NCBI GenBank assembly: GCA_009885795.1
Contig: VFKA01000075.1
Coordinates: forward strand, 1-37,067
Length of the DNA stretch: 37,067 bases
Direction of reading: 5' to 3'
Origin: Rhodospirillales bacterium
GTDB lineage: Bacteria; Pseudomonadota; Alphaproteobacteria; Dongiales; Dongiaceae
The position numbers and the translations under genes were made by a program. Numbering within the stretch: position 1 is the stretch's first letter; each line of letters opens with the position of its first letter. The notes under the pieces are model-generated. The model searched no databases. It saw only the letters and a list, made by a program, of their open reading frames with translations, and was not told the DNA's origin. Below, piece by piece: positions 7,152-24,432 of this stretch.

Positions 7152-7610
7152 TCAGGGATGCCGAGCCGCGGTGCGGGCCGCCGGCTTCTTCAAACGCGGT
7201 TGCGCGGCGGGTTTTTTCCCGATCCGATAGATATACGCGTCCTCGATCCACATTTCTTGGAGGACGCCCGAAAACTTGATCGAACCGATTCCAGGACCCG
7301 TCTGAACGGCGCGGCCCAGCAATGTCGGCAAGCGATCCCGGGGCGAGATCATTTTGACACGCGTGAACTCCAAGTCGAAATTCCCGGCGCTACGCTCCTT
7401 GAGGCGACTGAAGCTCCGGTCAACCCGCCGATAGGCTCCAAGCGTTCCGCCGGATTCGACCACTGGGCTCGCAATCAAGAGGCGCCAGCTGTCGCTGTCA
7501 GACTCGTAGAGCCAGAAGGCAGCGGTGACAGGAAACTTGTCTTTATCCAACTGTTCGATCAAGGACCTTCCATCCTTGATGTCACGATCTACCAGTGTTG
7601 CTGCAGCCAT
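7152..7610 (-). CDS. Uncharacterised partner of HEPN protein
   Basis: I do not recognise a named domain in this 152-residue cytoplasmic protein. The first 125 residues look like a compact alpha/beta fold containing DIKDGRSLIEQLD, FWLYESDSDSWRLLIASP and TGPGIGSIKF...EDAYIYRI. The last 25 residues are a basic Lys/Arg/Pro/Ala tail that might bind nucleic acid. It begins inside the end of the upstream HEPN gene (22-base overlap), so the two are translationally coupled and probably act together. Similar-looking proteins beside HEPN genes are, to my recollection, common and uncharacterised in proteobacteria. Toxin-antitoxin or regulatory function is only a hypothesis. Base composition is lower in GC than the neighbours. 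Confidence 0.7.
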   Translation of the reverse strand: MAAATLVDRDIKDGRSLIEQLDKDKFPVTAAFWLYESDSDSWRLLIASPVVESGGTLGAYRRVDRSFSRLKERSAGNFDLEFTRVKMISPRDRLPTLLGRAVQTGPGIGSIKFSGVLQEMWIEDAYIYRIGKKPAAQPRLKKPAARTAARHP

Positions 7611-7960
7611 TGTAGGACTCCGTGATGCGGGTCGGCGATAGCGCGATGAAAATCCTGAGCGTCCTTGCGGCGCACATTCGCAAGATACCTTCGCTCAGGT
7701 TCCCAGTCCTTGATCGTGTTCCAATAGCTCCGAAACTCCACGTCCTTTTCCTTTTCTAGCGCGTCTCCGAGTCCCGCCAAGCCCACCAGGTCGTCCAGTT
7801 TGTGGGTCCAGACACGCTGAACCCGCTTCAGGTCGGGAATGGTGTTAGCCCGAAATGTCTTGGCGATACATGCTTTCAACGCGCATTCCACGGCGTAGCC
7901 GGCAAGATAATATGCGGCAGGGTAACGCTTGGCTTTGAGCAATGCCTCACTATCTGCCAA
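7589..7960 (-). CDS. HEPN-domain protein, start uncertain
   Basis: From the TTG at 7960 the product is 123 residues. The core AAYYLAGYAVECALKACIAK (about 15-34) is the typical first HEPN helix pair. Two candidate Rx6H RNase-type motifs exist (Arg46-His53 and Arg98-His105), but neither can be assigned confidently as the HEPN active site. In-frame codons continue upstream as far as a TGA and read like conserved sequence (IKEPAQIRLADSEALL), yet contain no ATG or GTG. The true start may therefore be the TTG, an ATT at about 7982-7984, or the N-terminus may be lost. HEPN proteins act as RNases in toxin-antitoxin and defence modules or as nucleotidyltransferase partners. It overlaps its downstream partner gene by 22 bases. 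Confidence 0.8.
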   Translation of the reverse strand: MADSEALLKAKRYPAAYYLAGYAVECALKACIAKTFRANTIPDLKRVQRVWTHKLDDLVGLAGLGDALEKEKDVEFRSYWNTIKDWEPERRYLANVRRKDAQDFHRAIADPHHGVLQWLQQHW

Positions 7961-8074
7961 GCGTATCTGAGCCGGTTCCTTAATGCTCTTTGCGAGTCAC
8001 TACGGGGTCCCCATCCCGACCTTAGGCCACAAACCGAACTCGCAGCGCGGGTACCGCCAGGCTGATCGCCGCGG

Positions 8075-8410
8075 CTACTTCCGGACCCACTGGCCGTCGA
8101 CGAGGAGGTACTCGCCGGGCGGCGATTCCCGATAAAGCCTCTCGGCCGTCACCGCCGCCACCGTCTCGACGGAGGTGCCGGTATCGGCGGCGATCTGGGC
8201 ATAGGCCGCCTGGCGCTTGGCGTTGATGGTCTTGACGAGGGAAGCGATATCCGGCGAGGGGCTGCCTTCCACCGCCGCCACGAAACCTGTCGGCGTTTCA
8301 CCGACGAGGCCGGCCGCTTGGGCGTCGTCGAGGGCATCGGCGTGAGCCGAACCGGCGAACAAGACAAGCGCCGCCATCGCGGCCGCCAATCGAAGGAAGA
8401 AGGTGCGCAT
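8075..8410 (-). CDS. ydbL: YdbL family periplasmic protein (DUF1318)
   Basis: This 111-residue protein has a clear signal peptide (FFLRLAAAMAALVLFAGSAHA, cleavage near residue 24). Its mature region matches YdbL/DUF1318: a conserved segment around VGETPTGFVAAVEG, then INAKRQAAYAQIAADTG and a C-terminal LVDGQWVRK. It is the third gene after ydbH and ynbE, the same order as in Escherichia coli. There YdbL is a periplasmic factor that helps YdbH and the lipoprotein YnbE form an envelope-spanning bridge for phospholipid transport. Function here is transferred from that family. Confidence 0.9.
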   Translation of the reverse strand: MRTFFLRLAAAMAALVLFAGSAHADALDDAQAAGLVGETPTGFVAAVEGSPSPDIASLVKTINAKRQAAYAQIAADTGTSVETVAAVTAERLYRESPPGEYLLVDGQWVRK

Positions 8411-8434: not shown

Positions 8435-8632
8435 TCAAAACAGATCGGGGTTGGTTTTCATGAGGTCCTCGACTTCGCGGTCGATCTTGATCCGGACTTC
8501 CTGCTCGATCTTCACGTTCAGGTTGATGACGATGGGCTTGTCGGGCGCCTCGACTTTCACCGTCGGATTGCAGGCGGTGACAAGCGCCAAGCCAAGCGCC
8601 GCCGCAAGTCCATGCCTCGAGCCCGGTTTCAT
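8435..8632 (-). CDS. ynbE: YnbE family outer-membrane lipoprotein
   Basis: The 65-residue product starts at the ATG at 8632. An upstream in-frame ATG at 8653 would add seven non-conserved residues before the signal peptide. A hydrophobic stretch leads to the lipobox VTAC, with the lipidated Cys about 22 residues in. The mature part, with VNLNVKIEQEVRIKIDREVEDL-like content, is a short beta-strand-prone segment typical of YnbE. In E. coli, YnbE stacks on the C-terminus of YdbH to reach the outer membrane. Gene spacing is 41 bases from ydbH and 24 bases to ydbL. Confidence 0.9.
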   Translation of the reverse strand: MKPGSRHGLAAALGLALVTACNPTVKVEAPDKPIVINLNVKIEQEVRIKIDREVEDLMKTNPDLF

Positions 8633-8673
8633 GCCCTCATTTGCGCCCAACAATCGGGCTATTGCAAGGCGCG

Positions 8674-11352
8674 TTACCGGGGGGCCGCGCCGAATTGCGA
8701 AAGCCGCTTGGCGATGGTGTCCGGCACCTTGTAGCCGGCCAGGCTCCGGCGCAGGATCTGGTCCAGGCGACCGGTAAGATTAAGATTGAACTCCACCGGA
8801 TAACCATCGTAAAAACCAGGATTTTTCCCGGCCAGATGGACGCCGATCTCCATATCGCCGCCGGCCGCGCGGTCGATCGTGAGATCGAGCTTTTGGTACT
8901 GGAAATCGTTGAGGGCCGATAGCGCGAGGGCCACTGTTTCGCCCTGCTCGGCAAGGGCGGCCGGCGCCGAGGCTGGCGCGTAGGCGATTCGGCCTGGCGA
9001 CCGGGCCTTAAGCCGGCCGTCCTCGATGGCCCAGTCGGCGCCTTCGATCCGCACCGGGGCGCGGCCATCGAGCAAGCCGGTGGCGGAGAGGCCGTCGATG
9101 TCCACGAGCTCGACCAGCTTGGCGAGATCGATGCCGGCGGCGGCGACGGCAAGGTCGTAAACACTGGCGTCGAGAGCGATGCTCGCGGGCTCGATGCCGA
9201 TCTCGCCGCCGCCGAAGGCAAAGCGCGCACCGGCAAGGTCGAACCGGCCGGGCGCCAAACGGAACGTCACCAGACCGTCGGTCAGCGGCAGGCCGGCATC
9301 GAGGAGCGCGATGGCGATCTCTTGGCCCGGCGGCGTGGTCAAGGGCGCAAGCCCGTCGATGTCGATGACGCCGTTCAGGCGCACGATTTCGGCGGCGGCG
9401 GTTACGAGCGAGAAATTCTCGAGAAGAAGTTTCGCGTCCGTCTCGATGCGCCCGCCCTTCCATTTTCCGCCGCCGGCCAAGGCCACCTTTCCCGACGCGG
9501 TCTCGATCCAATTTGCCGCCAGCGGCACAACGTCCTTGGGCTGCTGCCCACGCTCGGCGAAGACGATCGGCGCGACAGTCATGCGCGCCTCGCCGGCATT
9601 GGTGGAAAAGCGGTGCCGGCCTTCGATCGATGCCGAGACCGCGCCGCCGAGGAGCCGCGCGGAAAAATCCGCGGCGTCGGCGCCGATCGCCGCCTTGGCG
9701 TCGAAGGCAAGCGGAATGAGCCAGGATTTTTCCACCGGCCCCAGCCGGCCGGTGAGAGTCGCCTCGGCGCGAAACGCGCCGCCGGCCGGTTCGCTCAGCG
9801 ATACGGCGAGTTTGGCGGATTGGAGGGTCAAGCTTTCGGTCGTCACGTCCGTCTTGCCTATGCGAACATCGCCGACCATGCCTTCCGGCGACAGCGACAG
9901 CCGCGCCACCGATATCGGCAGATCGAGATCGGCCAAGGCCGGCAGGCCGGGAATGGAGAGGCGGCGAAACGACGCCCGGCCCGGCGCGGTTGCTTCGAGC
10001 GAATAGCCTTCGGCGCCGGCTTCGATGGCGATGGGAATCTTGACGCGCAAGCCCTCGGCAACGGCGCCGGCGGCGACGGCGCGCCCGTGGAGATCGAGAT
10101 CGGCGCGGCCGGTCGCGGTGGCGGAGGTTTCGCGCAAGACGAATGTGCCGCCGAGCTTGGCGTCGAGCGCGAGGCCGCCGGAAACAATCGCCATGCCGAG
10201 ATCCTCGCCGGCAAGCACGAGGCCGGAGGGCTGGCGCGAAAGGCGCAAGATCGCGGGGCGCAGCGTCATCTTCATCGGCCCCTGGAGCAGCGGCGGGGCG
10301 CCGGCCATGTCCGGCGTTGCGTCGATCAGGAGATCGGCCGGAATGGTCAGGATGACGTCGTCGCCGGCAAAGGACAGATCGAAGGCGCCGGCCGCGCCGA
10401 TGTTCCGCGCCAGGCCCGGCCAGGCAAGGGCGTCGGCGGCGAAGGAAATCGTTCCGATGAACCCGGCCATGTCGGCCATCGTGCCTTCGGCGAAACCATC
10501 CAATGTCAGGCGCCCCTCGGCCGGATTGGGAACCCCGAGCAGCGGCCAGAGGGCGGCATCGGCGGCGGCTTCGACCGCGAGGCGCGCCTTCGCGTGGGAT
10601 GCCGGCCGGCCCAGATCGTCGAGCGTCGCATCGAGGACCATGTTCATGCGCTCGTCCGCCTCGACCAGACGAAGCTCGGCTCGCCCGGCGCCATTCTCGA
10701 CCGCCGCGTAGAGACTGCCGGATTCGAAATGCGCGCCGGCCACATCGGGCGCGGTGAGTTCGAAGCGCAGTGTCGCCTCCAGGGGAGCGCCCGCCGGCAG
10801 CACCGCGTGGAGGGCCCCGGAAAAACCGGCGCCGGCGCCGGCGATGTCGAAACGGCCGCGGGTCGAACCGAGAATAGCCTCGAAGCCGCCGTCCTTGGGC
10901 AGCACGCCACCGTTGAACGGCACCGTGGCGGACAAATTGGCGCCGGTTATCTCCAGGCGCGCGCCCTTGAAGTGGACTTCCGGAGGCACGGCCGAGCCTT
11001 CTTCCGCCGCGGCCAGGGCTTCGATGGCCGGATCGAGTTCGCCGAAGGAAAGTGCTACGCCTTCGAGGCGAGCCTTCAAGACGAGGCCGTCGATATCGAC
11101 GCGCGATACGACAAATTCGGACAAGGAATAGAGAACGGCGATCGAGGATGCGCTGGCGCTGTCGCCGATCTTGAGATCGACGATGCGCGCCTCGTCGAGA
11201 CCGAGGGATTGAATCGTGAGTTCGGCGTTCTCGATCCCGTATGCCGCCAGGCGGTCGCGCAGCAGAAAGCCGGCCAGCATCGGCAGCGCCAGCCAGACGA
11301 GCGCGGCGGCGAGGGCCGCGGTTACGACGAAGATGAGTGCGATACGGCGCAT
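8674..11352 (-). CDS. ydbH: YdbH family AsmA-like intermembrane transport protein
   Basis: This 892-residue protein is anchored by one N-terminal membrane helix (about residues 5-28). It is followed by a very long periplasmic region rich in beta strands with many repeats of the pattern hydrophobic-x-hydrophobic, as in AsmA/TamB-like bridge proteins. The C-terminal section (about 600-880, with GLLDGRAPVRIEG and LNLTGRLDQILR) matches the YdbH family, sometimes named dicarboxylate transport. It is the first gene of ydbH-ynbE-ydbL, a set implicated in anterograde phospholipid transfer between inner and outer membrane. A cluster of REP-like repeats and the 3' end of coxM lie upstream, so it has its own promoter in 11353-11420. 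Confidence 0.9.
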   Translation of the reverse strand: MRRIALIFVVTAALAAALVWLALPMLAGFLLRDRLAAYGIENAELTIQSLGLDEARIVDLKIGDSASASSIAVLYSLSEFVVSRVDIDGLVLKARLEGVALSFGELDPAIEALAAAEEGSAVPPEVHFKGARLEITGANLSATVPFNGGVLPKDGGFEAILGSTRGRFDIAGAGAGFSGALHAVLPAGAPLEATLRFELTAPDVAGAHFESGSLYAAVENGAGRAELRLVEADERMNMVLDATLDDLGRPASHAKARLAVEAAADAALWPLLGVPNPAEGRLTLDGFAEGTMADMAGFIGTISFAADALAWPGLARNIGAAGAFDLSFAGDDVILTIPADLLIDATPDMAGAPPLLQGPMKMTLRPAILRLSRQPSGLVLAGEDLGMAIVSGGLALDAKLGGTFVLRETSATATGRADLDLHGRAVAAGAVAEGLRVKIPIAIEAGAEGYSLEATAPGRASFRRLSIPGLPALADLDLPISVARLSLSPEGMVGDVRIGKTDVTTESLTLQSAKLAVSLSEPAGGAFRAEATLTGRLGPVEKSWLIPLAFDAKAAIGADAADFSARLLGGAVSASIEGRHRFSTNAGEARMTVAPIVFAERGQQPKDVVPLAANWIETASGKVALAGGGKWKGGRIETDAKLLLENFSLVTAAAEIVRLNGVIDIDGLAPLTTPPGQEIAIALLDAGLPLTDGLVTFRLAPGRFDLAGARFAFGGGEIGIEPASIALDASVYDLAVAAAGIDLAKLVELVDIDGLSATGLLDGRAPVRIEGADWAIEDGRLKARSPGRIAYAPASAPAALAEQGETVALALSALNDFQYQKLDLTIDRAAGGDMEIGVHLAGKNPGFYDGYPVEFNLNLTGRLDQILRRSLAGYKVPDTIAKRLSQFGAAPR

Positions 11353-24137: not shown

Positions 24138-24432
24138 TTACGCGACCCGAACAGCGTCCCGCTCTATGCTGTCCTTCATCAGCGGGTGAAGCGCGTCCCG
24201 CGTCGTAATGGTGACGGGGATTCCGAGTACCTCAGATATCTGCTCCTCGATTTGCATGAGGCGGAACAGGTTCGGAATCTTCGCCGCCGGGTTGTAGTCG
24301 ATGAAGAGGTCGAGATCGCTGTCGGCTCGCTCGGTACCGAGCGCCCGCGAGCCAAAAATAAATAGACCCGTCGCGCCGTTCTCGCGCAGAACCGCATCGT
24401 ACGTTCTCAGGCTCTCGATCAGGGCGGCTCAT
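24138..24432 (-). CDS. Minimal nucleotidyltransferase (MNT-like), disturbed start
   Basis: Reading 24422 to 24138 on the minus strand gives an uninterrupted 94-codon frame: GLFIFGSRALGTERADSDLDLFIDY and further VTITTRDALHPLMKDSIE. GSRAxG...DSDLD is the catalytic core of Pol-beta type minimal nucleotidyltransferases. There is no in-frame ATG or GTG: an in-frame TGA occurs at 24429-24431 and the next in-frame start-like codon is CTG at 24422. An ATG at 24432 is one base out of frame. Deleting one C after ATGAGCCGC would give MSRLIESLR..., so this is either a CTG start or a frameshift/sequence error. No HEPN partner is adjacent, although one lies at 7.6-8.0 kb. Confidence 0.75.

Follow-up and report, generated by a model that had tools for sequence, protein, structure and literature searches.

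The window analysed here, by which we mean the whole stretch of 37,067 nucleotides of contig VFKA01000075.1 from a Rhodospirillales bacterium, carries two short overlapping genes, one of them coding for a HEPN protein, which a preliminary description had put forward as a possible toxin-antitoxin or regulatory system. The locus thus raises the question of whether these two genes form a genuine module and, if so, what such a module may do. Both frames are present on the minus strand as that description had located them, the HEPN gene frame at 7589..7996 and the gene of its partner, a protein of 152 aa, at 7152..7610, with a dual-coding overlap of 22 bases at 7589..7610.

The difference in base composition between the pair and its neighbours, also claimed at that time, is evident from comparisons within the window, of which the pair is the lowest-GC part: its GC is 0.5735 vs 0.646 for the whole window, none of 3464 stretches of 809 bases (non-overlapping, window only) has a GC as low, and GC3 is 0.63 for the HEPN gene and 0.69 for the partner vs 0.79-0.90 for six other genes of the window. 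The gene at 8075-8410 sits on the same strand and the pair lies immediately beyond it. We take this gene and those at 8435-8653 and 8674-11352 to resemble YdbL, YnbE and YdbH. In three of the ten related loci with frames printed (L174, L175 and L181) the frame after the gene like 8075-8410 is an unrelated one of 305 residues, the other seven being not clear, and at E 0.001 the partner is absent from all 16 genomes of the same family. Since another frame occupies this place in those three loci and the partner is absent from the same-family genomes, the pair seems to have been acquired as an insert. A scan for promoters and terminators found none. Elsewhere in the window, a search with PF18765 pointed to a frame with a minimal nucleotidyltransferase motif (FGSRALGTERADSDLDLF) at 24138-24428 on the minus strand.

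The start of the HEPN gene, which had been called unclear, is indeed so. The frame is open to 7996 and its first common start is TTG 7960, from which the protein counts 123 aa. In 54 of the 62 aligned relatives the start codon, chosen by a script with a preference for proteins of about 138 aa, lies 36 nt ahead of a conserved R codon, and 33 of the 62 begin with MNR. A family-like N-terminus with a GTG start at 8000 is found in the window as well (7980..8000, minus strand), but there the distance to the conserved R codon is 37 nt. Its frame is shifted by one base against that of the HEPN gene and reads VTRKEH before a stop after six codons. Given the 37 nt instead of 36 nt and the early stop, either the start of this copy would be damaged, or it is mis-sequenced, or a poorer start codon is used; the copy may be broken at its N-terminal end. 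That the frame could be a degraded fragment with no intact relatives, as the preliminary description had considered, does not agree with the large number of intact relatives of the pair. In other genomes one gene of the pair is broken or truncated at L054, L078, L044, L065 and L215, which suggests occasional decay or sequence errors.

Membership of the first protein in the HEPN superfamily is carried by its Pfam match (PF05168, 26.9 bits vs a cut-off of 22) and by the comparison of its model (pLDDT 94.5) with known structures, in which the top rows are all HEPN proteins, including 1ufb (Z 12.9, 116 aligned residues, 2.7 A), 2hsb (AF0298, Z 11.2) and AbiV (Z 7.9); these values are at or below the Z of up to about 13 that is common among helical bundles with this tool. 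A Foldseek search with the model returned nothing under E 0.001, sequence searches of solved structures gave no relevant match, and the search of a viral structure library led to nothing. Conservation of the canonical RNase motif Rx4-6H is lacking, as the 63 sequences have no column of conserved His at that spacing after a conserved Arg. No column other than H65 has His in half or more of these sequences, and E37, K41, H65 and R103 are invariant throughout the alignment (63/63; 62 of the 70 HEPN relatives plus the window). E37 and K41 fall within the search pattern by which the genome loci were obtained, so that the 11 further sequences not found by that pattern give a less constrained test: H65 and R103 are present in 11/11 of them, and the 10 that cover positions 37 and 41 all have E37 and K41. 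The family thus shows the alternative arrangement of AF0298 and AbiV, a conserved His N-terminal to the Arg together with Ex3K; the accessible part of PMC3710099 describes for AF0298 and AbiV a conserved His that precedes the Arg and proposes that it is able to form an alternative active site.

The partner was described as a protein of no named domain, and at E 1 it has no match in Pfam, NCBIfam or PADLOC; five of its relatives are likewise without a match in PADLOC. Imm9 was considered as its identity and rejected, with one of 60 members matching at 0.0089, under the Imm9 cut-off. The model of the partner (pLDDT 90.8, pTM 0.82) shows a helix, two strands, a long helix, a strand, a helix and two strands, followed in the window copy by a basic tail. 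This tail had been pointed out before and is present, with a lower model confidence (pLDDT about 70) after YRI, but it is not a feature of the family: it is missing in 11 of 14 aligned relatives, the other three being two longer proteins and one fusion that was trimmed for alignment. Similarly, of the segment that had been quoted as conserved (TGPGIGSIKF...EDAYIYRI), the terminal DAYIYR is the well conserved part, whereas the preceding ING..I is less so among the 60 sequences of the partner alignment (the window and 59 of 63 non-redundant relatives, after removal of partners that were broken, fused or cut by a contig end).

By sequence, the two genes do not form a HEPN/MNT pair, in agreement with the preliminary description. 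The GSX10DXD nucleotidyltransferase motif is absent from the partner alignments, and homology to MNT was rejected at the sequence level because the hhalign score against 12 MNT sequences (12.9) is no better than that of shuffles, 6 of 100 column shuffles scoring higher and the best reaching 16.2. The searches by fold lean weakly the other way. With VIA the best match of the partner is the nucleotidyltransferase 2rff (Z 6.6, 94 aligned residues, 3.9 A), and OAS3 (5.6), TUT4 (5.3), FAM46 and HI0073 (4.1) are listed further down, all of these with a Z under 8, which is the stated noise range of the tool. Other folds come near to these values: a RimP-type protein (1ib8) reaches 5.1, an acyl-AMP ligase scores 5.0, and for BolA and RbfA-like folds the Z is 4 to 5. 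Foldseek places a chain of a ribosome-assembly structure at rank 1 (E 0.026) and the MNT antitoxin 7ae2 at rank 5 (E 0.11, TM 0.31). With sequence profiles unsupportive, the nucleotidyltransferase-like fold of the partner may serve as a lead only.

Some partners are continued by, or adjoin, other proteins. A Deinococcus plasmid (L004, 4363-5745) carries a fusion of the partner with a DUF3800 domain in which the 22-base overlap is retained, and in a SAR202 genome (L056, 4369-6312) the partner frame continues into an AICARFT/IMPCHase (purH-type) protein. In a Chloroflexi genome (L112, 4782-6314) the pair is directly followed by a gene with 68 percent identity to the purH-type second half of the SAR202 protein. 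At L126 the pair is flanked on both sides by other frames, presumably thymidylate synthase and MazG plus dihydrofolate reductase.

The two genes recur together as a unit. In 77 of 80 genome loci a partner start codon precedes the end of the HEPN gene by exactly 22 bases; these loci are the best 80 of 221, obtained via one HEPN peptide pattern and biased to the core clade. The three exceptions are L054 and L078, which have a stop within the HEPN frame, and L112, where the overlap is 4 bases; among the 77, the partner frame closes early in L044 and L065 and runs off the contig in L071 and L101. The titles of the 80 loci name Cyanobacteria, Planctomycetes, Acidobacteria, Bacteroidetes, Bacillus relatives, Chloroflexi, Proteobacteria and candidate phyla, and one locus is a metagenome contig binned as the archaeon Methanothrix. 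On plasmids, phages and viral contigs the same overlap, 22 bases exactly, links the HEPN gene to the next gene in 32 of 35 loci, many of them near-identical (five of the six plasmid or phage records found, H5 being left out as it resembles H4, and 30 viral contigs), with L006 (34 bases), L038 (25 bases) and L007 (4 bases, where the second gene codes for a ParA-type protein) as exceptions. The same bases code for the tail of the HEPN protein (W....W-stop) and the head of the partner (M....LV), and the overlap is thus fixed from both sides. The consensus pattern of the relatives' overlap has its sole match in the window at this very overlap, with 0.10 matches expected.

As many of the viral copies are near-identical, whole genomes were scanned as well. 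Among 398 genomes of the phylum of the window, the partner profile had four matches (window included), 4/4 beside a strong HEPN match, and in a fifth genome a diverged HEPN gene is followed by a diverged partner with an overlap of 4 bases (L127); the HEPN places considered here are the five stronger ones of 17, the other 12 being weaker than 1e-8. The second scan took the phylum to which L086, from the acidobacterium Silvibacterium, belongs; 12 partner places were found in 11 of 297 genomes, 12/12 beside a HEPN match. In both scans together, all 16 detected partners adjoin a HEPN gene (15/15 without the window), which bears out the co-occurrence that the preliminary description had proposed as a check. 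The 297 genomes also contained 20 HEPN places in 17 genomes, eight of them without a detected partner. Six of these eight precede a diverged partner, with an overlap of 22 in L213, L214 and L219, the HEPN gene of the last being incomplete, and of 4 in L216-L218; the remaining two are a truncated HEPN gene (L215) and a HEPN gene before a ParA-type gene (L220). The diverged partner groups are related to the partner family with hhalign probabilities of 94 to 98 percent and scores of 46 to 82, the top score being that of L006 with L038 and the best shuffle score 19.6, although single diverged partners can be weak (L218, only 6.2 bits).

Distances between HEPN proteins and between their partners are strongly correlated (Mantel r 0.80 for 77 pairs, a set without partners that are broken, fused or cut by a contig end; maximum 0.17 in 999 permutations). 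The median dN/dS is 0.22 for the HEPN gene and 0.21 for the partner in 61 close, non-independent comparisons with the overlap omitted, single values reaching 0.86, and both genes are under purifying selection. Chance ORFs are ruled out by pairing, selection and fold. The HEPN gene and its partner are a real, widespread and co-inherited two-gene module.

With regard to its distribution, the pair occurs in 189 of 5426 E. coli genomes, always on the chromosome and with an identity of 99 percent or more, and the two regions that were read place it within a lambdoid prophage, with the replication genes on one side and ybcN-ninE on the other. A 13.9 kb plasmid of Acinetobacter carries the pair with a BrnT/BrnA pair one gene away. 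A search for the partner in viral contigs gave nine candidates, none of which was confirmed. Presence is patchy in both genome scans (4/398 and 11/297 genomes). Lambdoid prophage, small plasmid, patchy presence and low GC in the window suggest that the module is mobile, and an arrangement of two small, co-directional and adjacent genes with mobile and patchy distribution is that of toxin-antitoxin systems. At the genome loci, 135 neighbour proteins were scanned, and 103 PADLOC and 152 Pfam families were matched. The commonest Pfam family has three occurrences among the best 25 of the 152, and the PADLOC rows among the best 25 of the 103 are E1-E2 models in two members. Defence islands were therefore rejected as an evident chromosomal context, there being no recurrent or defence neighbours among the matches listed.

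Among known systems, HepT/MntA is the obvious one for comparison. It likewise consists of two small adjacent genes, one of them HEPN, with mobile and patchy distribution, and HepT structures match our HEPN model with Z 7 to 8. Unlike MntA, our partner is without the GSX10DXD adenylyltransferase motif, as described in the accessible part of PMC7641770, and our HEPN protein is without Rx4-6H and its gene comes first, whereas the usual order, according to the part of PMC3710099 available to us, is MNT-HEPN. The AF0298-type HEPN-T proteins (PF05168) and AbiV share the fold and, as set out above, the upstream His. In contrast to AbiV itself, the window HEPN protein stays under the cut-offs of the respective models (PF18728, 19.7 vs 27.1 bits; TIGR04498, 17.4 vs 27). 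A search with TIGR04498 in 348 genomes gave four matches, two of them over the cut-off, and a search in four genomes gave none.

A third relative is the PADLOC candidate PDC-M28, which comprises a HEPN protein, a ParA-type ATPase and a third protein. The window HEPN protein matches PDC-M28A at 9.8e-10, and hhalign with 11 HEPN proteins of ParA-type loci gives 98.8 percent (E 1.1e-16). PDC-M28 differs in that its second gene codes for a ParA/AAA ATPase and that a third gene or domain follows, and membership of our pair was rejected, the partner having no PADLOC match while the Nostoc locus L007 has true B and C matches. In loci of this type (L221-L230 and L007) the HEPN gene is followed by a ParA-type ATPase that carries an additional domain of ~120 residues at its N-terminus and, in most cases, by a third gene of about 475-510 codons, the ATPase and the third part being one protein in L007; two such loci adjoin BREX genes. 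A domain common to the partner and this ParA N-terminus was also rejected, since the two are similar by eye but score 13.3 vs a best of 15.4 in 100 shuffles. Phage versions of both proteins exist in PHROGs. phrog_5737 corresponds to the HEPN protein (window match 6.1e-28) and phrog_5760 to the partner, which it matches in the viral locus L026 at 4.4e-90 and in the window directly at only E 0.12, the link being made via intermediates such as L032 (5.4e-10); both are listed as of unknown function. In the literature no paper was found on PDC-M28, on the E. coli accessions or PHROG numbers of the pair, or, among the HEPN papers listed, on this pair.

Taken together, we consider it about an even chance (roughly 50%) that the pair is a mobile, self-contained module in which a HEPN RNase effector with an alternative site is held by a coupled partner that binds it directly. 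The HEPN protein would be a putative ribonuclease using an AF0298/AbiV-type site, H65 with R103, E37 and K41, and would stop growth by RNA cleavage. The partner, presumably made from the same transcript with its translation coupled to the HEPN gene's end, would bind the HEPN protein directly and suppress its activity; phage infection or loss of the module, for example, would act as the trigger that releases it. As the partner is without the nucleotidyltransferase motif, this control would not operate via AMPylation. A toxin-antitoxin or defence function is plausible; RNase activity, toxicity, binding, translational coupling and trigger are inferred. Several observations speak against this reading, namely the absence of the canonical Rx4-6H, the HEPN-first order, reversed with respect to MNT-HEPN, the lack of evident recurrent or defence neighbours among the matches listed, the Z values of the HEPN model, which do not exceed those common for helical bundles, and the possibly broken HEPN copy of the window.

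The main competitor, which we regard as rather unlikely, is a two-subunit anti-phage effector in which the partner would be a sensor or activator needed by the HEPN protein and not its antidote. The titles of AbiV entries in the PDB speak of 'an RNase in a two-component antiphage system', AbiV shares the alternative site by the description in the accessible part of PMC3710099, the pair lies between replication genes and ybcN-ninE in the two lambdoid prophage regions, and the related HEPN protein of PDC-M28 (98.8 percent by hhalign) is subunit A of that candidate system; on the other hand, the AbiV models score under their cut-offs and the chromosomal copies are without an evident defence-island pattern among the matches listed. 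It is unlikely, although it can be combined with the best explanation, that the partner is a diverged and catalytically dead minimal nucleotidyltransferase, so that the pair would be a degenerate HepT/MntA pair neutralising by binding alone. The 2rff match of VIA with OAS3, TUT4, FAM46 and HI0073 behind it, 7ae2 at Foldseek rank 5 and the order of helices and strands, which fits the MNT topology with a four-residue turn in place of the motif loop, point in this direction. The same searches weaken the case, as Z under 8 is the noise range of the tool, RimP-type, acyl-AMP ligase, BolA and RbfA-like folds are close behind, Foldseek puts a ribosome-assembly chain first (E 0.026), and the hhalign score to MNT is beaten by 6/100 shuffles.

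Since the canonical Rx4-6H is absent, the HEPN protein could also be a non-catalytic binder of RNA or protein, and the pair would then be a non-toxic one in which an RNA-binding HEPN protein and its cofactor act in RNA or stress regulation. The accessible part of PMC3710099 offers MtlR as a precedent for a non-catalytic HEPN protein, and the chromosomal neighbours are scattered without a recurrent theme among the matches listed. We regard this as the least probable of the alternatives, as the patchy mobile spread in prophages and plasmids, together with charged residues that do not vary, favours an active effector. To return to the RNase effector held by its partner, a bolder version would see in the pair a new class of HEPN effectors, extending from phages to many bacterial phyla, in which a pseudo-nucleotidyltransferase without the motif controls an alternative-site RNase by binding alone and the fixed 22-base overlap couples their synthesis; we put this forward as quite a doubtful suggestion.

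HEPN modules are among the commonest prokaryotic conflict systems, according to the accessible parts of PMC3710099 and PMC7641770. In the searches made, we came across neither a name nor a tested function for the pair, and the partner fell into no curated family of Pfam or NCBIfam. It is small, with about 270 residues in all, and intact copies are present in many bacteria. With the pair one could test whether the alternative site allows HEPN proteins that lack Rx4-6H to cleave RNA, and how control of a HEPN effector is possible without AMPylation.
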